Shown piece by piece: positions 1,681-35,256 of a DNA stretch of 35,256 nt. The first letter of the stretch is position 1; each line of letters starts with the position of its first letter. The position numbers and the translations under genes are program-made. Source of the DNA: a virus; the IMG/VR virus record IMGVR_UViG_3300025168_000285, positions 1-35,256 of that record. One strand, 5' to 3'. Below the pieces are notes generated by a model. It was not told the DNA's origin, searched no databases, and saw nothing but the letters and a program-made list of their open reading frames with translations.

Positions 1681-1850
1681 TCGTCTGGTATATTTAACGC
1701 TTCTATTATAGCAAACTCTATTGTTTTACTTGGATTGTTAAACCCCGTAAGTTTATAGACCTTTGTTCTTAAATCTTTCCAACGTCTGTATGTTTCTTTT
1801 GTTACCTTAACTTTTATTTCGTAACTAAAATCATTGTCTGGGTTTGTCAT
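1668..1850 (-). CDS. Small RHH-like hypothetical protein (60 aa)
   Basis: A 60-residue protein whose ATG overlaps the methyltransferase stop by 4 nt, so it is probably translationally coupled to the modification operon. It has a short strand (SYEIKVKVTKET) followed by two predicted helices (YRRWKDLRTKVYKL, then SKTIEFAIIEALNI). That order resembles the ribbon-helix-helix fold of small DNA-binding proteins. This is a pattern judgement, not a family match. It may be a local repressor or an accessory protein of the modification enzymes. Confidence 0.6.
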   Translation of the reverse strand: MTNPDNDFSYEIKVKVTKETYRRWKDLRTKVYKLTGFNNPSKTIEFAIIEALNIPDECLR

Positions 1851-2434
1851 ATTATGTATGCTTGTAATTGTTCTAAATGTGAAATGCTATTGTCTAGTTG
1901 TAGTCTGTTTTTATAGAACTCGTTTGTACATCTGTATTCCCCTGAAAATATGTGTTTTGCTTTAACTGGTAACAATGCCTCTAACTGTTCTTTTGTACGA
2001 AAGTATTTAAACTCATTTTTACTGTTGTGATATTTAACGTGTAAGTCTTGGTTCGTAAACTGTATTACTAACACCTTTAAACAATTCATTTTGCTAAACA
2101 GTTCCATAACTTCATAATCGTTTAGATAGTGTAATACATACCTTAAAATGCCTAAGTCATAAAACCCCTCGTGTTCTAATATGTTTTGTAATACGTCTGG
2201 TTGTTTTTCTTTATCCTTGTCTATTGTTACTGCGTGTGGTATGTATTGTTTAATTAACCCGTTTCCACCACCATAATCTCCAACCGAACTTGGAACGTGT
2301 ATTTGGTCGAGTATTTGTCTAATACTGCGTCTGTAAAGATAATCACTTGTTTCATCTTCCCACATTCCAAAGTTAACCCCGTTGTCTACGTTAATAGTTT
2401 TTTTCTGCATACTTGCTAAATTTAACCCACTCAT
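1847..2434 (-). CDS. SAM-dependent methyltransferase next to dpdA
   Basis: A class I methyltransferase fold of up to 195 residues. Motif I is VGDYGGGNG (residues 51-59), an acidic residue pair follows the second strand (ID, 71-72), and a motif IV-like segment is FYDLGILRYVLHYL (92-105). There is no obvious DPPY/NPPY motif of adenine or N4-cytosine DNA methylases and no PCQ motif of C5 enzymes. The ATG at 2434 lies inside dpdA (44-nt overlap); a second ATG at 2410 (residue 9) would leave a 20-nt overlap. Coupling to dpdA suggests that it acts on the modified base or its precursor, for example methylating a carboxyl or amine. It may instead act on a host target. Confidence 0.8.
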   Translation of the reverse strand: MSGLNLASMQKKTINVDNGVNFGMWEDETSDYLYRRSIRQILDQIHVPSSVGDYGGGNGLIKQYIPHAVTIDKDKEKQPDVLQNILEHEGFYDLGILRYVLHYLNDYEVMELFSKMNCLKVLVIQFTNQDLHVKYHNSKNEFKYFRTKEQLEALLPVKAKHIFSGEYRCTNEFYKNRLQLDNSISHLEQLQAYII

Positions 2435-3131
2435 AAAAATTATGTTTTGCTACTTGGTTTGTTTTTACATTCTTCCCGTCTCGTTGGTGTTTGTTAAAAC
2501 GTTTTCCGTTCCATTCATAAACCATTCCAAAACGGTTACCACCAATCCAACTCGTGCTGTCCACACTGTCGAAAGGCATTTTATCTAACATTGTCATTTT
2601 AGTATATCCCAACCCGTGAACCTTAACCCCTTTGCTGTGTGCGTAATCAATTAGTTTTCTTAACTTCTCTGGGTTTTGTCTTGTCCATTTACTTGCGTAC
2701 ATACCACTAGCAGAAATTGCTATGTAATTGTACTCCTCACATATCTGTTTGTAATAATCTGTTCCTAAGAAATAATGGAACACCGGCATTGTTTGTTTAC
2801 CAGTTTCTTTTTCTATTCTTTGGTTTATTATGTCTGTGTCTACCTTTCCAATTAATTGGTAGATGTCTAATTCAAAAAACAATTTAACGTCCCAGTCGTT
2901 TATGAATTTAATATACTTAGAAACATATTCATTAAGGTCTGTTTTAGCACCACCGAAAAAACTAAATGCCCCACTGTCTAACATAAAGTTGTTGTACTTA
3001 TGTATAACTTCTGCCTCGTGTTTACTTATTGCCCAAAAGGTTTCCAATCTATTAAAGTCGTAAAAGTTATCACCACCTAATTTTTCAATCCATAACTTAT
3101 CCCAACCACTTCCCGCTAAATATATTTTCAC
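2391..3131 (-). CDS. dpdA: DpdA-type DNA guanine transglycosylase
   Basis: A homologue of tRNA-guanine transglycosylase that exchanges guanine in DNA for a 7-deazaguanine base. It has 246 residues, about two thirds the length of bacterial TGT, as is usual for phage DpdA. LDSGAF (51-56) corresponds to the DSGGF active-site loop of TGT, and PFDSVDSTSW (186-195) corresponds to the region with the nucleophilic aspartate. The TGT zinc site is absent. The start is GTG, overlapping the upstream TGA as GTGA. It follows queD, queE, folE and a ParB-fold gene in one overlapping operon, which is the main support for DNA rather than tRNA modification. The exact base inserted cannot be read from the sequence. 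Confidence 0.9.
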   Translation of the reverse strand: MKIYLAGSGWDKLWIEKLGGDNFYDFNRLETFWAISKHEAEVIHKYNNFMLDSGAFSFFGGAKTDLNEYVSKYIKFINDWDVKLFFELDIYQLIGKVDTDIINQRIEKETGKQTMPVFHYFLGTDYYKQICEEYNYIAISASGMYASKWTRQNPEKLRKLIDYAHSKGVKVHGLGYTKMTMLDKMPFDSVDSTSWIGGNRFGMVYEWNGKRFNKHQRDGKNVKTNQVAKHNFYEWVKFSKYAEKNY

Positions 3132-3682
3132 AGTCCCAAAAGTTTAAACACAATTTCTTCTTTAGTACCGTCAAGCTCTGCTAACTTGTCTAACACTAAC
3201 TGGTGTTCTTCGTCTGTGTATTCTAAAACAATTTTGTTTGTTTCTTCTTTTGGTTTGTAGTCGTCTACGTCTTCAAATAAATTATCTATGCTAACGTCTG
3301 TGTTTGTAAACTCGAACTCTTTAAAACCAATTTCTAATAATACTTCTTTATCAAAGTGTTCGGTTAACATATCTACATCAAATCTTCCACCCGACTTATT
3401 CATTCTAACGTTTAACTCTTTTTCTTTGTCTAATGTTAAGTCTAATTCTATACACGGAACAACACTCATATCTAACGTTGTACACGCTTTTAAACGTTGG
3501 TGTCCACTTATGATAATATCTTTTCGTTGTTTGTTTACGTTAACTAAAATTGGCTCTACCAGTCCGAAACGCTTTATGCTATCTTGTAGTTGTACCAACT
3601 CCTCCTCTGTTATAACTCTTGGGTTGTATTCAGCAGTTATTAAATCTGTTACTTTTCTTTCTTTAACTTTTACCTTTTTCAT
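3128..3682 (-). CDS. ParB/sulfiredoxin-fold protein, possible DpdB-like partner
   Basis: A 184-residue protein with an N-terminal ParB-type domain: a strand and loop with EYNPR (18-22), a helix LVQLQDSIKRFGLVEPILVN, and the nucleotide-binding motif ISGHQRLKA (58-66). The C-terminal half (after about residue 120) is acidic and unlike chromosomal ParB; I see no HTH for parS binding. It overlaps folE and dpdA by 4 nt on each side. In the bacterial dpd clusters a ParB-like protein, DpdB, is needed with DpdA for base insertion, so a similar role is the best guess. A nuclease or a segregation factor are alternatives. Confidence 0.78.
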   Translation of the reverse strand: MKKVKVKERKVTDLITAEYNPRVITEEELVQLQDSIKRFGLVEPILVNVNKQRKDIIISGHQRLKACTTLDMSVVPCIELDLTLDKEKELNVRMNKSGGRFDVDMLTEHFDKEVLLEIGFKEFEFTNTDVSIDNLFEDVDDYKPKEETNKIVLEYTDEEHQLVLDKLAELDGTKEEIVFKLLGL

Positions 3683-4539
3683 TTTATTAAGTTTAAAAAT
3701 TCTTGTCGTGCGTTTAAATCTGTTTTAAATACACCAGTCATTTTACTGGTTGTTGTAAACGTGTCGTGTTTCTTTACACCCCTCATTTCCATACATAAGT
3801 GCTGTGCCTTTAATACAACAGCAACCCCCAACGGTTTTAATTCCTTTTCTAAGTATTCTGCTACTTGCTGTGTTATTCTTTCTTGGTTTTGAAATTTTCT
3901 ACTAAATGTTTCTAGTGTTCTTGCTAACTTACTTAACCCCACAATTTTCTTATTTGGTATGTAAGCAATATGTCCCTTTCCAAAAAATGGTGCTATGTGG
4001 TGTTCACAAAGTGAGTGAAACGGTATATCTTGTTGAATAATCATTTCATCATAGCCCTCGCTTTTAAATGTTGTAAAGTTAAAATGTGGAGGGGTTAAAA
4101 ATTCTTTAAGAAACTTAACATAACGTTTTGGTGTTTCTTGTAACCCCTCACGGTTTACATCTTGTCCAAAGTATTCTAACAACCTTACCACGTTTTCCTC
4201 TACTTCTTTTTCACCAGTTTCTTCCCACGGAAATTGTATCCACGTATTCTTAAATTCTTTTCGTTTGTCAAATAGAAATACGAACTCTTTTTTTGGGTAC
4301 TTCTTTTTCCATTTCTTGTATGTTGTTCCACTGTCGTAAAGGTCATCAATAATAACATTTGCTAAGTCGGGATGGTCTACTGCTCTGCCCGTCATACCCG
4401 CTACAACTTGTCCACCTCTTGGAATACCATAAAATCTATCATCTGGTTTGTTAAACTTTTTAGTTTTCTCGTACATTGCTTTGTAAATTTCTTGCCAACT
4501 TAATTGGTGTACTTTTACTTCTGTTCTTGTTTCACTCAT
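3679..4539 (-). CDS. folE: Phosphoribosyltransferase-GTP cyclohydrolase I fusion
   Basis: A two-domain protein of 286 residues. Residues about 10-106 are a small type I phosphoribosyltransferase with GIPRGG (38-43) and the PRPP loop VIIDDLYDSGTT (62-73). Residues about 112-275 are GTP cyclohydrolase I, with the zinc ligands C178 and H181 in SLCEHH and C249 in QHLCMEMRG. FolE converts GTP to dihydroneopterin triphosphate, the first step towards 7-deazaguanines. The PRTase half could join guanine released by DpdA to PRPP to make GMP, feeding the GTP pool; that link is my inference. It lies between queE and the ParB-fold gene in a coupled operon. Confidence 0.92.
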   Translation of the reverse strand: MSETRTEVKVHQLSWQEIYKAMYEKTKKFNKPDDRFYGIPRGGQVVAGMTGRAVDHPDLANVIIDDLYDSGTTYKKWKKKYPKKEFVFLFDKRKEFKNTWIQFPWEETGEKEVEENVVRLLEYFGQDVNREGLQETPKRYVKFLKEFLTPPHFNFTTFKSEGYDEMIIQQDIPFHSLCEHHIAPFFGKGHIAYIPNKKIVGLSKLARTLETFSRKFQNQERITQQVAEYLEKELKPLGVAVVLKAQHLCMEMRGVKKHDTFTTTSKMTGVFKTDLNARQEFLNLIK

Positions 4540-4548
4540 AATGTTTTT

Positions 4549-5265
4549 TTAAACTCCAGTTACTTTGTTCCAAATATCTACTTGTAATCTACTTCCAAAG
4601 TAATAATTATTTTCCTTACACATTTCTGCAACCATTGGTGCTAAATCGTTTAACTGTTCTCTACAATCTCCCGCCGGCATTAACACCACCTTTTCTTCTT
4701 TTAAATCTAACAAATCTATTAAGTCTTGTATCTCTGCTAGGTCTTCTTCTTCACACACCACAAATTTAAAAATAGATGAACGGTAGTTATTTATCTGTCT
4801 TAACACATCTGCTTTAATTCTTCTTTCTTCTTTCATACCACTATTACACAACTTTGGCGAACAGTTAATTAAGTCAAACTCCTTTAGTAATTCATTTGTA
4901 AATTCTATTGTTCCGTTGGTTTCTATTTCTAAAAATGGTACGTATTCATATTTCCTATAATACACATCTACAAATTCTTGTATTGCCGCTTGTTGTAACA
5001 TTGGTTCTCCACCCGTAAAAACTAGGTGTGCCCCTTTTGTTAGGTACTTATGAAACCGTTGAAACACATCTTTGACTAAATCTCTAACCAACATTTTTTC
5101 ACCCTTTGTCCAAACTGGTATTGTATCACACACCCAGTCTTTGCTTTTACATAATAAGTTACACGCTTGTAATCTTATAAAGACACTTGGAACACCCATT
5201 GTTATTCCCTCGCCTTGTATAGAATAAAACATTTCGCTTACTCTAATTTCCTCTTTCTTTTTCAT
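4549..5265 (-). CDS. queE: 7-carboxy-7-deazaguanine synthase (radical SAM)
   Basis: QueE converts 6-carboxytetrahydropterin to 7-carboxy-7-deazaguanine. The 238-residue protein has FYSIQGEG (13-20), the radical-SAM cysteines C35, C39 and C46, the TGGEP motif (84-88), EIETNG (113-118) and CSPKLC (135-140), all typical of the family. The cysteine spacing is CX3CX6C rather than CX3CX2C; the segment ends CDTIPVW, as in a QueE subgroup with an insertion in the cluster loop. The start overlaps the end of queD by 23 nt. The purine-rich leader lacks a clear Shine-Dalgarno sequence. Confidence 0.94.
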   Translation of the reverse strand: MKKKEEIRVSEMFYSIQGEGITMGVPSVFIRLQACNLLCKSKDWVCDTIPVWTKGEKMLVRDLVKDVFQRFHKYLTKGAHLVFTGGEPMLQQAAIQEFVDVYYRKYEYVPFLEIETNGTIEFTNELLKEFDLINCSPKLCNSGMKEERRIKADVLRQINNYRSSIFKFVVCEEEDLAEIQDLIDLLDLKEEKVVLMPAGDCREQLNDLAPMVAEMCKENNYYFGSRLQVDIWNKVTGV

Positions 5266-5656
5266 TGTATATTACTTTTGATGTTTTGGTTTCTGCTAAA
5301 CTAATTTCTATTATTGGTAGTTCTCTTTTAATTTGTTGGAATATCCATATTGCCATATTCTCTGCACTGGTTTGAAAGGGCAATTCTATAAACGGTTCGT
5401 TGTCTAATTTTAATAAACTACATAACTCATCTTTTTCCCACAGCAAAAAGTAATGGTCGTATTGTTTTATTACTGGTTCTACAACCTTATCAATGTCACT
5501 GAATAACATTGTTACACCATTTTCGTTTATGTTATCAAAAGCAAAGGTACACACAACGTCGTACGTGTGTCCGTGTAATCTACCACACTTTTCTCCCGCT
5601 GATTTATTTCTGTGTCCAGCGTAGAAATGGTATTTTTTTTCTATGTATAAACCCAT
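5243..5656 (-). CDS. queD: 6-carboxytetrahydropterin synthase
   Basis: QueD makes 6-carboxytetrahydropterin from dihydroneopterin triphosphate. The 137-residue protein has the three zinc histidines H15 (FYAGHRN), H28 and H30 (CGRLHGH), the catalytic cysteine C24, the D67-H68 pair in YDHYFLLW, TSAEN (96-100), and the substrate glutamate E122 in AETKTS. Length and motifs are those of the small QueD/PTPS-III family. It is the first gene of the pathway set in the transcribed order and overlaps queE by 23 nt. Confidence 0.95.
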   Translation of the reverse strand: MGLYIEKKYHFYAGHRNKSAGEKCGRLHGHTYDVVCTFAFDNINENGVTMLFSDIDKVVEPVIKQYDHYFLLWEKDELCSLLKLDNEPFIELPFQTSAENMAIWIFQQIKRELPIIEISLAETKTSKVIYNEKERGN

Positions 5657-5657
5657 T

Positions 5658-5993
5658 TTAAAATTCGTTTATTAAAAAATAGTAACTCTCATCTAGTTGT
5701 AAAATTGTTTCCATATTTTTCATATAATCTAATAAATTACTTCTATCCTTTCCCTCCCATATTTCGTGACACCCTTTTCTTTCTCCTAAACTTAAACAAT
5801 GGTATGTTATATTTTCTTTATTTGTTTCTAAACTTTTATTGTAACTTCTTGGTATTAAGTGTGAATGTGATAACGGTACATCACTTCTTCCACACCCAGT
5901 ACAATAATGTGGTCTTTCGTTTGCTAATTCGGTATAAACTTTTTTTAATTCTTTGTTTACCTTACTTTGTTTCTTACTTACACGGTTTAACAT
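5658..5993 (-). CDS. HNH-like zinc-finger nuclease
   Basis: A 111-residue protein with CTGC (31-34), a histidine motif HSHLIPRS (43-50), a further cysteine C66 and C75-H76 (KGCHEIWEG). The order CxxC, HxHxIPRS, C, CH is that of an HNH/beta-beta-alpha-metal nuclease with a structural zinc, like phage recombination or packaging nucleases. The N-terminus is basic and probably contacts DNA. It overlaps the VRR-NUC gene by 7 nt and ends 1 nt before queD. It may process DNA ends for packaging or repair; homing activity is less likely because the gene is integrated into the operon. Confidence 0.75.
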   Translation of the reverse strand: MLNRVSKKQSKVNKELKKVYTELANERPHYCTGCGRSDVPLSHSHLIPRSYNKSLETNKENITYHCLSLGERKGCHEIWEGKDRSNLLDYMKNMETILQLDESYYFLINEF

Positions 5994-6349
5994 CTACAAT
6001 TATTTGTTTGCTTTAGTTTTAAGTATTTATCTATTTCCTCTATTGTTTGTTCTAAACCTTTAGTAACCAACGCTTTGTAACCCCTATCATTTAGATCTAA
6101 TATCCACTGCTTTTGTTCTTTGGTTGCGTACCGTTTTAATTGTTTTATTTCAATGAACAACCCGTAATAACCACCACGAGCTTCTGTAATTTGTAAGTCT
6201 GGAAATCCCTTAACGTAACCCGTTGCTTTTGCTTTCACTGCTTGTTTGAAACTGGTTCTTATTCCACCTAAACTAGCACAGTATCTTACTCTTGGATATT
6301 TCAATTGTAAGTATTTAACCACTGCCGTCTGTAAGTTTTGTTCACTCAT
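5987..6349 (-). CDS. VRR-NUC domain nuclease
   Basis: A 120-residue stand-alone VRR-NUC nuclease of the PD-(D/E)XK class. The core is E in MSEQNLQ, then KGFPDLQI, FIEIK, and a glutamine-rich helix KEQKQWILDLNDRGYKALV; these give the D-ExK-Q catalytic signature. I chose ATG 6349. The longer frame begins at a TTG, and the ATG starts directly at the conserved glutamate helix. Such enzymes in phages are thought to cut branched DNA during replication or recombination. It is the first gene after the terminator at 6368-6396 and may head the nuclease and modification transcript. Confidence 0.86.
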   Translation of the reverse strand: MSEQNLQTAVVKYLQLKYPRVRYCASLGGIRTSFKQAVKAKATGYVKGFPDLQITEARGGYYGLFIEIKQLKRYATKEQKQWILDLNDRGYKALVTKGLEQTIEEIDKYLKLKQTNNCRC

Positions 6350-6367
6350 TACAGTTTTCAAAGATAT

Positions 6368-6396
6368 AAAAAAAAAGGAAACGCTGATGGTTTCCT
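6368..6396 (-). terminator. Rho-independent terminator
   Basis: On the minus strand a 7-bp stem AGGAAAC / GTTTCCT with a 7-nt loop is followed directly by a run of eight or more T. It lies between the 67-residue gene at 6448 and the VRR-NUC gene, separating the replication/small-gene transcript from the nuclease/modification operon. A second small inverted repeat (CAACAA/TTGTTG) lies just upstream at about 6408-6423. Confidence 0.85.
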
Positions 6397-6447
6397 AAAT
6401 TTATTTCAACAACTAATTGTTGATAAACGTGTTATAACGTCTTTATG

Positions 6448-6651
6448 TTAGTTTGTGGGTGTTGTTATCTTATCTTGTTTTAAGTCCGTTAAAACGTTTA
6501 ATAACTGTATTGGTGTGTAGATTGGTATCGTGTTATCTACCGTGTGATATATACAAATAAAATTGTTATTGTCTTTGTCCCATTGCCATAACAAATTCTT
6601 ATTCTCCTCTATCTGTTTCCTTAGAATTTTCTTTATCCCTTTGTATTTCAT
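6448..6651 (-). CDS. Hypothetical protein (67 aa)
   Basis: A 67-residue protein with a basic N-terminus (KYKGIKKILRKQ) and a beta-rich middle (WDKDNNNFICIYHTVDNTIPIY). It starts at ATG 6651 within the last 53 nt of the upstream gene, a longer overlap than usual here; no later ATG is available. It is the last gene before the terminator at 6368-6396. No family recognised. The overlap leaves some doubt about the start, not about the frame. Confidence 0.6.
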   Translation of the reverse strand: MKYKGIKKILRKQIEENKNLLWQWDKDNNNFICIYHTVDNTIPIYTPIQLLNVLTDLKQDKITTPTN

Positions 6652-7020: not shown

Positions 7021-7322
7021 ACCCTTTCATTTTCTTCTTCCCACACACTGCTACAATGGTCGTTACAACGGTAGCACATTTTCTGGTCAGTGTCCATCTT
7101 TGCCTCACAACAACTACTTACACCACTCCATTCGTCTTCACAGTTACAATCGTCGTTCTCACCACACATTACACAATCCTGGTGTTCTTCACAGTAATCG
7201 CTATTCATTTCTATTTCTTTATCACATAACTTACAACTAGGGTTTGTTCCATTCCATTCTGTTGGGTCGTTACCGTTACTGTTATGTGTTGCCGAAACCC
7301 AGTCTTTAAAATTTAATCCCAT
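7014..7322 (-). CDS. Cysteine-rich zinc-binding protein (102 aa)
   Basis: A 102-residue acidic protein with at least five cysteine pairs: CKLC (about 30-33), C..H in DYCEEHQDC, CVMC, CNC, CC (SSCCEAK), CYRC and a final C. At least two zinc knuckles or ribbons can be built from these. It has very few basic residues, so RNA or protein binding is more likely than DNA binding. It overlaps the GGCT-like gene by 17 nt. Function unknown; inhibition of a host factor is one possibility. Confidence 0.7.
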   Translation of the reverse strand: MGLNFKDWVSATHNSNGNDPTEWNGTNPSCKLCDKEIEMNSDYCEEHQDCVMCGENDDCNCEDEWSGVSSCCEAKMDTDQKMCYRCNDHCSSVWEEENERVC

Positions 7323-7689
7323 AATTATTTTCTTTGTATTCTCCTTTTGTTAATATAAAATTTTCTCTCATTGGGTGTTTGTAAAAGTAACACCACGCTC
7401 TAACCTTTTGTTTATCTTCTAACGTTACACTTATCATTTGTCTTTCGTACAAATCGGGGTGTCCCTCTAACATATCTAAATGTAACATTGTTTTGTAACT
7501 AACTTTGTAAACTTCTCCTTTTACTTGGTGTGTTGCTTTTTGTGTTAGGTAGGGTAAACCGTGTTCGTACAAAGTAAATAAATTGTTTGTTGTTGCTCTA
7601 CCAATAATTTGGCTATTTGCTAGAAACCCACTGTTAGAATATCCAAACTTTAAAGTTCCATAAACAAATACATATTCTTTATTCTCCAT
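7306..7689 (-). CDS. Gamma-glutamylcyclotransferase-like (AIG2/GGCT) protein
   Basis: A 127-residue protein of the GGCT fold: the substrate loop VYGTLKFG (9-16) at the N-terminus, a central catalytic glutamate in MLEGHPDLYER (E75), and a C-terminal W-C-Y-F-Y strand. These enzymes release 5-oxoproline from gamma-glutamyl amines or trim gamma-glutamyl adducts. Phage and bacterial genomes often combine them with amidoligases and class II glutamine amidotransferases, both present here at 13350 and 12041. The three may form one peptide- or metabolite-modifying pathway, or GGCT may act alone. Confidence 0.85.
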   Translation of the reverse strand: MENKEYVFVYGTLKFGYSNSGFLANSQIIGRATTNNLFTLYEHGLPYLTQKATHQVKGEVYKVSYKTMLHLDMLEGHPDLYERQMISVTLEDKQKVRAWCYFYKHPMRENFILTKGEYKENNYGIKF

Positions 7690-12040: not shown

Positions 12041-12964
12041 TTAGTTAATATCATTTCCAAATAACTTTAATTGGTGTTTATTAAACTCCTCGTCTGTCAT
12101 TTCCATTAAACGTTTTGTTTCCTTAACTTCTGTTAACTCATAGTCTGTAATGTCTATTTCGTTAATGTCGTCCCAACCACACGTTTCTATGTTGTTGTCA
12201 AAGTCGTCTGTTATACCACTGTAAACTCCTTTGCTACTCATTGGTAACGTTCTACTGTAATTTCCGTATTTGTTTTTCTGTGGTGTACTGTATTCCCACC
12301 AGTTACGGTTGTCTGTATTGTAACTTGCTATCGGGTCGTGTTCTATGTCTACTTTTTCAATAACAGTGTTACCACTCCACACGTATAATCTACCCTCTTT
12401 AAGTTGGTAAATGTTGTTTAATTTACAGTTAACCAATACATCTTTTAAACTACTAAAATAAACATCACCGTTTTTATCTCTACCACACCATAACGGGTTC
12501 GTTTTTCTGTAAGTGTAGTAATACTCACCTATTGTAAACAACGTTGCTAGTGCCCCACTAAATTTCCCCAGTGTTTTAAAATCGTGTTTTGTTTTGTCTA
12601 ATACTTTAAAAATCATTTGGCTGTCTACTTCTGTTTCACCACAACTAAATTCTTCTCCTACATCTAAGTAATTATACACAACCCCGTTGTGTGCCCCAAC
12701 TACATCACCGTATTTAAACGGGTGTTGGTTGGGTAACGTTCTTGCCCCGTGTGTACTAAAACGGGTGTGTCCAATAAACTGGTTAGTTTTTAACTGTCTT
12801 ACTCTTTGGTGTAGTCCTAAACTTTTTCCTAACACCTTTTCAAATTTATCACCATCATAATATCCCGTACTGTGTCCACCACGTTTATCGTTTGCTATCA
12901 ACAACTGGTTTATTATCGTTGGGTTTGCTTGTCGGTTTCCCGTAAATCCTATTAATCCACACAT
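12041..12964 (-). CDS. Class II glutamine amidotransferase (Ntn hydrolase)
   Basis: A 307-residue protein with the class II glutaminase hallmarks: catalytic Cys2 (MCGLIGF), HTRFSTHG (66-73) and AHNGVVYNY (91-99). These are seen in the N-terminal domains of GlmS, PurF and asparagine synthase, but the synthase or isomerase domain is absent. Residues 110-200 complete the Ntn fold (TEVDSQMIF; ALATLFT). The C-terminal 90 residues are acidic and unlike known relatives. It should release ammonia from glutamine for a partner ligase; the amidoligase two genes upstream is the obvious candidate. Confidence 0.9.
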   Translation of the reverse strand: MCGLIGFTGNRQANPTIINQLLIANDKRGGHSTGYYDGDKFEKVLGKSLGLHQRVRQLKTNQFIGHTRFSTHGARTLPNQHPFKYGDVVGAHNGVVYNYLDVGEEFSCGETEVDSQMIFKVLDKTKHDFKTLGKFSGALATLFTIGEYYYTYRKTNPLWCGRDKNGDVYFSSLKDVLVNCKLNNIYQLKEGRLYVWSGNTVIEKVDIEHDPIASYNTDNRNWWEYSTPQKNKYGNYSRTLPMSSKGVYSGITDDFDNNIETCGWDDINEIDITDYELTEVKETKRLMEMTDEEFNKHQLKLFGNDIN

Positions 12965-13349: not shown

Positions 13350-14396
13350 TTATGAAACCGTAACTTCTACCTGTCCTATTGTACTAAACAATAACGTTCC
13401 TAGTTGTCTTGTTGTCTGGTTTGTATCCGTAACACCTAATAAGTGTAAAAGTGTCTTACGTCCACTCTTAACAGTGTTTCCGTCCTCTTTTACTTCTATA
13501 CCACCGTTGCTTAATTTGTTTACTGTAAACACTGTTGCTGTTAACTCACATACTGCCTCCCATCTCTTAACAACACTAATTGTTTTAACACTTCCAAAGT
13601 TAGTAAACCCAAAATGGTTTGCTCTACCTAACATAAAGTCTAATACAACTTTACTAGTGTGTCCAAAACATTGTTTAAATGCTACCGTTTGCTTAGTTCT
13701 AACAGTTGGTGTAATAACTGTTTCTAACTGGTTACACATTTCAACAGTTGTAATTAACCAGTGTGCCCAGTTTAAAATTTTCTCACTATCTAAACTTCCA
13801 CCGTGTTGTCTAAACTCTACCGTTCTTTGTCTGCTGTATGCTTGTAAATTTACTGTTTGGTATCTTGTACCGTTAAATGCACTAATAACTTCGCTAACAC
13901 TATTACAACCGTTTAACCTACTGTTAATCTGTGTTAAGTCACCGTAATTATTTGCTAATGTATTTGTCCATCTACTGTTTCTTCTGCTTGGTGCTAAAAT
14001 ACTTTGTATTATGTGTTGGTTTTTTGCGTAAAATAAAACAACGTTTTTAATTCCTTGTGTTGTTATATCACTTGCCCCAACGTGTACGTGTATTCCACAA
14101 TCTCTGTTTACTGTAACACCCTCTATATTTGCTAAACAATCTATAATACATTTTGCGTTTTCCATTCCTTTCTTACCACTTAGTATTGGAGAAACCAATT
14201 CTAATCCACACGTGCTGTCAGTTACAATTTTCCAATGGTTTTGTGTTGTGTGGTTGTACCCCTCACCAATACAATCTAATTTTCTAAACTTCTTGTTAAT
14301 GTATTGTGCTAATACGTCTTTACTCATAGAACTTCTGTTTACAAATTCTATCTCTAATCCAAATGTTCTGTCTGTTGTTAATTTTGCTAGTTTCAT
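13350..14396 (-). CDS. Amidoligase (COOH-NH2 ligase family)
   Basis: A 348-residue protein of the putative amidoligase family (glutamine synthetase-like/COOH-NH2 ligase fold). Motifs in order: FGLEIEF (12-18), W55, LELVSPILSG (65-74), CGIHVHVG (100-107), LFYAKNQ (121-127), SRR (137-139) and TVEFRQHGGSLD (192-203). These E, H and R residues bind Mg-ATP in the family. Such enzymes form amide bonds between a carboxyl and an amine, and occur with class II amidotransferases and GGCT proteins as here. The substrate is unknown: a peptide, a cell-wall group or a carboxylated base. It is the first gene after the control region. Confidence 0.88.
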   Translation of the reverse strand: MKLAKLTTDRTFGLEIEFVNRSSMSKDVLAQYINKKFRKLDCIGEGYNHTTQNHWKIVTDSTCGLELVSPILSGKKGMENAKCIIDCLANIEGVTVNRDCGIHVHVGASDITTQGIKNVVLFYAKNQHIIQSILAPSRRNSRWTNTLANNYGDLTQINSRLNGCNSVSEVISAFNGTRYQTVNLQAYSRQRTVEFRQHGGSLDSEKILNWAHWLITTVEMCNQLETVITPTVRTKQTVAFKQCFGHTSKVVLDFMLGRANHFGFTNFGSVKTISVVKRWEAVCELTATVFTVNKLSNGGIEVKEDGNTVKSGRKTLLHLLGVTDTNQTTRQLGTLLFSTIGQVEVTVS

Positions 14397-34780: not shown

Positions 34781-35256
34781 TTAACCGAAATAAGTAATTT
34801 TGGTTTTGTTTAATTCAAAATACATACGCATCATTAACGCATCACTTATGTCTGGTGAACGTCCAATGTTTTCTTTAATTTTATCCTTACCAATTATTCT
34901 TAATTTATTGTCTTTGTCTACGTCTTTCATTTGTACCACTTCTAACTCTTGTATTATTTCTTGTTTAAACTGGTTGTCCTTAATATACAATCCACCGTTG
35001 TTTACTAAATCTGCTAATTTGTAATAACACTGTGATTTTAAGTTTTGATAGTTCTCTTTGCCCAATGCCTTAGAATTATTAATAAATCCCTTAGAACCTC
35101 TTAAAACGTCCTTTAAACCACCACCAACACCGTCCTCATCTATTATGATATTACTTCTTTGTATTTTGTATTGTTGTGCTGTTTCTAATACGTGCTGTTG
35201 TAATTCGTGTATTCCAGTTTTATTGTACTTAATAATTTTAATAACTACCCAACCAC
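34781..35256 (-). CDS. terL: Terminase large subunit, C-terminal nuclease part
   Basis: The reading frame enters from the right edge and ends at 34781. It is the continuation of the terminase frame that begins at 974 on the left. It encodes the RNase H-like nuclease end: IIIDEDGVGGG (second acidic group), KLADLVNNGGLYIKDNQF and SPDISDALMMRMYFEL (third acidic group), the typical TerL C-terminus. In this copy the base missing at the left end is present, so the frame is intact. Confidence 0.93.
   Translation of the reverse strand, partial: GWVVIKIIKYNKTGIHELQQHVLETAQQYKIQRSNIIIDEDGVGGGLKDVLRGSKGFINNSKALGKENYQNLKSQCYYKLADLVNNGGLYIKDNQFKQEIIQELEVVQMKDVDKDNKLRIIGKDKIKENIGRSPDISDALMMRMYFELNKTKITYFG
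35117..35256. repeat. Right copy of terminal overlap
   Basis: A 140-bp repeat of positions 1-139 with one extra C at 35131. The reading frame of terL is intact in this copy, so it is the more trustworthy version of the junction. Confidence 0.93.

Follow-up and report, generated by a model that had tools for sequence, protein, structure and literature searches.

A predicted class I methyltransferase takes the place of QueC beside dpdA in a phage 7-deazaguanine cluster and may act on the 7-carboxylate of CDG

The DNA analysed here, which we call the window, is the whole 35,256-nucleotide IMG/VR virus record IMGVR_UViG_3300025168_000285. On its minus strand, the gene for a putative methyltransferase (MT) lies next to dpdA, together with a ParB-like gene and genes for FolE, QueE and QueD (Table 1). 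The dpdA product was assigned to phrog_887, queuine tRNA-ribosyltransferase (E 1.4e-43), and a profile built from eight DpdA sequences matched a DNA-guanine transglycosylase in the PDB (7ui4, E 0.0061). The phosphoribosyltransferase-like N-terminus of FolE is shared with the homologue in locus L007 (65%) and others. A 140-nt repeat, differing by one indel, occurs at both ends of the window (positions 1-139 and 35117-35256), and a second record, L001, spans the junction. The genome of ~35 kb is therefore probably complete and looks circularly closed, despite which the record is among those that IMG/VR classes by their ends. No QueC (PF06508) was found anywhere in the window. It also encodes an amidoligase, a class II glutamine amidotransferase and a GGACT protein; the amidoligase was considered as a further carboxylate-tailoring enzyme and set aside, as it is not linked to MT and was present in one of 20 records searched, the window itself.

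Table 1. Coordinates of the genes discussed in the window.
Feature	Coordinates	Strand	Evidence and remarks
MT, putative class I SAM-dependent methyltransferase	1847..2410	-	conserved start ATG 2410; longer ORF from 2434
dpdA, DNA-guanine transglycosylase relative	2391..3131	-	GTG start; 246 aa; 20-nt overlap with MT
ParB-like gene	3128..3682	-	ParB_N E 1e-9; stands before dpdA in most of the related loci
FolE (GTP cyclohydrolase I) with N-terminal phosphoribosyltransferase-like domain	3679..4539	-	GTP_cyclohydroI E 1.1e-64; phrog_8995 E 6.5e-7
QueE, 7-carboxy-7-deazaguanine synthase	4549..5265	-	phrog_2076 E 2.9e-56; QueE models, best E 1.1e-22
QueD, 6-carboxytetrahydropterin synthase	5243..5656	-	PTPS E 7.3e-26; TIGR03367 E 2.7e-20
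GGACT	7306..7689	-	
Class II glutamine amidotransferase	12041..12964		
Amidoligase_2	13350..14396		E 3.8e-31

The original prediction placed the MT open reading frame at 1847-2434, starting 44 or 20 nt inside dpdA, and the coordinates of both genes as well as both overlaps proved correct. The full frame encodes 195 amino acids and its first ATG gives the 44-nt overlap, while an ATG at residue 9 gives the 20-nt overlap that relatives share, so that MT measures 187-195 amino acids depending on the start. Because this second position is conserved as ATG among the MT rows of the alignment (11 of the 12 scored, as against 24 ATG and 29 ACG in QueC rows), we take position 2410 to be the true start; the one MT row with ACG was read as L096, where MT sits away from dpdA. 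A 20-nt overlap was present in all 11 loci checked and likewise in L095, the start codon falling in the +1 frame of the conserved C-terminal Lys-Tyr-Ala of DpdA. In 11 of 71 loci a QueC-family gene has this 20-nt overlap with dpdA too, because an ATG is available in the +1 frame where DpdA has its conserved end, and we therefore rejected the idea that translation from within dpdA reflects a special coupling of the two genes.

The earlier call of a class I methyltransferase was borne out by family matches, by structure models and by structure comparisons. Pfam Methyltransf_23 matched all 12 members of the MT alignment at E ≤ 0.1 (best 3e-6), the window protein itself reaching E 0.0033 and 17.6 bits, under the Pfam cut-off of 27. 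D53, G55, G56 and N58, in the Gly-rich motif I loop after strand 1, and the acidic residues D72 and D74 after strand 2 were invariant in the same 12 sequences; R98, H102, K134 and R146 are conserved as well. AlphaFold models built from 5 and 12 sequences had pLDDT values of 80.6 and 83.3. In a Foldseek search the MT model had 97 matches in the PDB at E ≤ 0.001, and each of the 50 among the matches listed was a methyltransferase, as judged by title or known function. MT is thus predicted to be a class I (Rossmann) methyltransferase and a putative SAM-dependent enzyme. According to these models the fold does not tell its substrate, the best matches being mixed: the top Foldseek match was AbBioC (E 3.6e-5; identity 9-12%), BioC being the malonyl-ACP carboxyl O-methyltransferase, with which MT has only the fold in common, whereas the top VIA matches were the protein N-terminal methyltransferases NTMT1/2 (Z 13.0-13.3 over 159-164 residues, rmsd 3.2-3.5). 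PDB sequence searches with MT found nothing convincing (best E 0.26 and 0.78), and PHROGs gave no consistent family. The original observation that MT lacks target-base motifs also holds across the family, as none of 13 MT proteins carries the [DNS]PP[YFW] motif of DNA adenine-N6/cytosine-N4 methylases or the PC and ENV motifs of DNA cytosine-C5 methylases.

A single-protein scan of viral contigs with the window MT found only L001, which is identical to it. When a dpdA profile scan was followed by tblastn, MTs of 51-55% identity were found directly after dpdA in L008, L015, L019 and L065, and scans of viral contigs with the MT alignment found 14 loci and then one new contig, L101. In all, relatives with 50-100% identity lie on 15 IMG/VR contigs beyond the window, most of them fragments, and make up 13 distinct proteins including the window's own (L001 duplicates the window, L091 duplicates L090 and L093 duplicates L092), with the proviso that pattern scans detect only relatives retaining conserved peptides. 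The uncharacterized protein A0A6J5MXR3 of an uncultured Caudovirales phage (BFVD) is a further member, 56% identical. At the sensitivity used, no relative was found among cultured-phage records by tblastn with two MTs, nor in a prokaryote genome collection with either the single protein or the alignment.

The original prediction had called for profile searches of MT and its association with dpdA, and had named homologues lying mostly away from dpdA as an outcome that would speak against it. The searches found the association: dpdA is immediately upstream, with exactly 20 nt of overlap, for 11 of the 13 distinct MTs, the remaining two are found close to DpdAs of other kinds, and QueD, QueE and FolE are present in all 16 MT records, the window included. 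The L095 contig starts inside dpdA, and L101, found last, has dpdA followed by MT with the 20-nt overlap and no QueC. L096 has the order ParB-dpdA-QueD-QueE-FolE-MT; its MT is 53% identical to the window's and its DpdA only 26%. In L094, a fragment of 22 kb that also has polymerase and RecA-like genes, QueD, QueE and FolE are close to MT, and a TGT-like gene (Pfam TGT E 8.1e-4, below cut-off), which our DpdA profile did not pick up, is situated ~8 kb away. The MTs of L015 and L090 are 79% identical and their DpdAs 48%. Judging from such comparisons, MT moves between dpdA lineages.

The usual gene order in related loci is dpdA-[MT or QueC]-QueD-QueE-FolE, so that MT and QueC share one slot; in the window, L001, L014 and L101, QueD-QueE-FolE come first and MT or QueC again stands directly after dpdA. 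We compared 94 related dpdA loci, drawn from the best 80 of 375 dpdA matches and from other searches, with an excess of near relatives and with some records repeated. Of these, 13 had MT without QueC, 71 had QueC without MT, 7 had salvage genes (DUF6884 or VUT), 3 had none of these, and no locus had both MT and QueC. The 13 MT loci include the three duplicates named above, and the 94 leave aside L003 (a piece of the window, dropped), L094 and L095 (in which no dpdA had then been detected) and L101 (found later). When only loci with QueD, QueE and FolE all present were counted, 13 had MT, 65 QueC and 3 neither (Fisher p 1.5e-12, with kinship and repeats not taken into account), and a tree-aware sign test of MT against QueC gave 3-4 opposite and 0 same among 5 pairs, too few for significance. 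PF06508 matched all 71 slot QueC proteins at E ≤ 0.001 in a per-protein scan; L031 was counted as QueC on this ground, yet gave no match in the whole-record search. That search found QueC in none of the 16 MT records, the 19 non-MT records in it having been chosen after their QueC status was known and so not forming an independent sample.

The dpdA nearest to that of the window belongs to L014 (76%), which has a QueC-family gene in the slot. In a dpdA tree of 79 rows, with both L092 and L093 among them, the window's sisters are L014 and L026, both with a QueC-family protein, and the MT label needs at least five changes, five being forced by well-supported branches in this quick search. Since L010, L012 and L087 have clusters with neither gene, loss of QueC does not require MT. 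Taken together, these gene-content comparisons indicate that MT replaces QueC in the slot after dpdA and that the two are mutually exclusive; a host QueC may act in these phages.

The slot itself is diverse. Of 71 aligned slot QueC-family proteins, 54 lack the CxxCxxC zinc motif, 48 of these 54 being at least 180 amino acids long, and because so many lack it the usual product of the slot is uncertain; judged by this motif, the phage enzymes concerned may have a product other than preQ0. In L014 (6576-7337), L018 (6740-7507) and L031 (6891-7631), an N-terminal domain, which in L014 has weak Zn_dep_PLPC similarity, is fused to a truncated QueC-like PP-loop. Short QueC-like proteins of 141-152 amino acids fill the slot in L023 (4591-5019), L025 (1970-2395), L027 (4370-4795), L028 (1207-1632), L029 (2037-2495) and L040 (412-852), and 395-aa QueC-family proteins resembling Gat-QueC do so in L075 (823-2010) and L085 (6750-7937); two members of the slot QueC alignment match glutamine amidotransferase domains. 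In L012, which has neither QueC nor MT, a group 1 glycosyltransferase gene (5619-6620, Pfam E 3.1e-8) lies between dpdA and QueD, possibly for a glycosylated deazaguanine. Finally, L002 (2017-3031) and L006 (4640-5663) have DUF6884 and a VUT/queuosine-precursor transporter after dpdA and no de novo genes that we could find, which is likely a salvage version of the arrangement.

One position of DpdA varied with the slot. At residue 140, within an AI[S/G]ASG stretch, all 11 MT rows have Ser (two of these rows are identical), compared with 5 of 59 QueC rows and 0 of 6 salvage rows; the column was selected post hoc among all columns. QueC loci mostly have Gly, and the DpdA of L101, examined later, has Ser. 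A tree-aware sign test gave 1-3 same and 0 opposite among 5 pairs, again too few for significance. From TGT structures we take this region to line the base pocket, and the alignment gives a weak hint that the pocket may be adapted to a different base, with methylation before insertion. As proof of such adaptation Ser140 was dropped, the column being post hoc and shared by some QueC rows.

How might these enzymes act together? FolE, QueD and QueE would make 7-carboxy-7-deazaguanine (CDG), the 7-carboxylate of which would be converted by QueC-family enzymes to an amide or nitrile in related phages. Since QueC is absent from the window phage, its own pathway would end at CDG, with MT filling QueC's place, and since MT repeatedly takes the place of a carboxylate-converting enzyme, the simplest reading is that it acts on the carboxylate. 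MT would move the methyl group of SAM onto it to yield a methyl ester, 7-methoxycarbonyl-7-deazaguanine; its substrate would be either the free base, methylated ahead of insertion by DpdA, or dCDG that DpdA has already placed in the DNA. Being neutral, this ester would resemble the amide and nitrile, which are presumably the groups that related DpdAs accept. We are confident that MT belongs to a CDG-based modification pathway, to judge by its genomic company, and think it probable that it acts on CDG or dCDG. This much of the original prediction stood, on the grounds that MT replaces QueC and is found only with QueD, QueE and FolE, whereas its argument from the gene overlap did not, since QueC-like genes overlap in the same way. 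That MT is a tailoring enzyme making the methyl ester at the 7-carboxylate, a target atom and product that we infer, is the reading we favour by a modest degree.

The alternative that fares best, although we consider it doubtful, is that the methyl group goes to a different atom of CDG or dCDG, namely O6, N2 or a ring nitrogen; methylation elsewhere than at the 7-carboxylate has been proposed for HuiC. The evidence of pathway membership serves this reading as well as it does the ester, and the huimycin report states that deletion of huiC abolished huimycin, whose base is 2-amino-6-methoxy-7-cyano-7-deazapurine (PMC7439116). However, the huimycin cluster retains a QueC homologue according to the same report, and methylation elsewhere on the base leaves unexplained why none of the 16 MT records has one. 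Alternatively, the slot may have been vacated, with plain dCDG or host-made preQ0 being used and MT having nothing to do with the base. Although the three clusters with neither QueC nor MT lend this some substance, we find it unlikely, as the slot is taken repeatedly by a single family (five changes on the dpdA tree), MT persists outside the slot with QueD, QueE and FolE in L094 and L096, and the one close pair of MTs compared (L097/L098, dN 0.019, dS 0.097) points to purifying selection. It would be more surprising still if MT methylated a protein of the pathway, such as DpdA or the ParB-like protein: the highest VIA Z scores do belong to NTMT1/2, but the substrate can hardly be read from a class I fold and unrelated small-molecule methyltransferases came within ~1.5 Z, while MT is kept together with the very divergent DpdA of L096 and occurs in none of the QueC loci of the synteny comparison. 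Orphan methyltransferases are frequent in phages, but the absence of base-methyltransferase motifs, the presence of QueD, QueE and FolE in every MT record and the failure to find cell-genome relatives make it highly improbable that MT merely travels with the cluster as an orphan methyltransferase of DNA bases or as a metabolic one.

Returning to the methyl ester, a fuller scenario can be sketched, which we offer tentatively and hold to be somewhat less likely than not. In this scenario the window phage and its relatives would carry 7-methoxycarbonyl-7-deazaguanine in their DNA, made from free CDG before a Ser140-adapted DpdA inserts it, and the slot would be exchangeable, holding QueC, a truncated or fused QueC-like protein, Gat-QueC, MT or perhaps a glycosyltransferase, so that DNA chemistry is swapped while the rest of the pathway is kept. 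7-Deazaguanine modifications shield phage DNA from restriction, and if the scenario is true, exchange of a single gene slot would alter how the DNA is decorated. If MT esterifies CDG, a carboxylic ester would be a new base chemistry in DNA: our literature searches found none, and no paper on a CDG methyl ester in DNA, the 2023 paper on DpdL, DpdM and DpdN lying outside their coverage. The ester predicts an exact mass and is open to a simple chemical test: dCDG is followed at m/z 311.1 to 177.1 (PMC8306585), and its methyl derivative would be expected at m/z 325.1 with a base ion at 209.1, with the caution that a methyl ester could hydrolyse during digestion of the DNA and be misreported as dCDG.

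Several known systems resemble parts of this proposal. DpdL, DpdM and DpdN were reportedly named by Cui et al. in 2023, and DpdM is said to act on dPreQ1 and to have a fold new for nucleic acid methylases. DpdM is like MT a phage methyltransferase of a 7-deazaguanine DNA pathway, and the same description sets it apart from MT, which is predicted to have an ordinary class I fold and belongs to a pathway without QueC; dPreQ1 is for this last reason not expected to be the substrate of MT. A 2019 survey considered that a phage lacking only QueC could carry a CDG modification (PMC6884629). QueC itself, in a published account, acts on the 7-carboxylate of CDG and converts CDG via the amide to preQ0 (PMC13329287); it shares with MT the slot after dpdA and often the 20-nt overlap, and differs in being an unrelated protein, which carries out ATP-dependent PP-loop amidation and not SAM-dependent methylation. 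HuiC is described as being encoded, like MT, among FolE, QueD and QueE homologues and as a SAM methyltransferase proposed to act on a 7-deazaguanine, but in that case with a QueC homologue kept, 6-O-methylation of preQ0 as the proposed reaction and no insertion into DNA (PMC7439116). For the ester chemistry proposed here, a functional analogy is CmoM, which esterifies the carboxylate of a modified tRNA base, cmo5U, its substrate being a tRNA uridine (PMC12783734).
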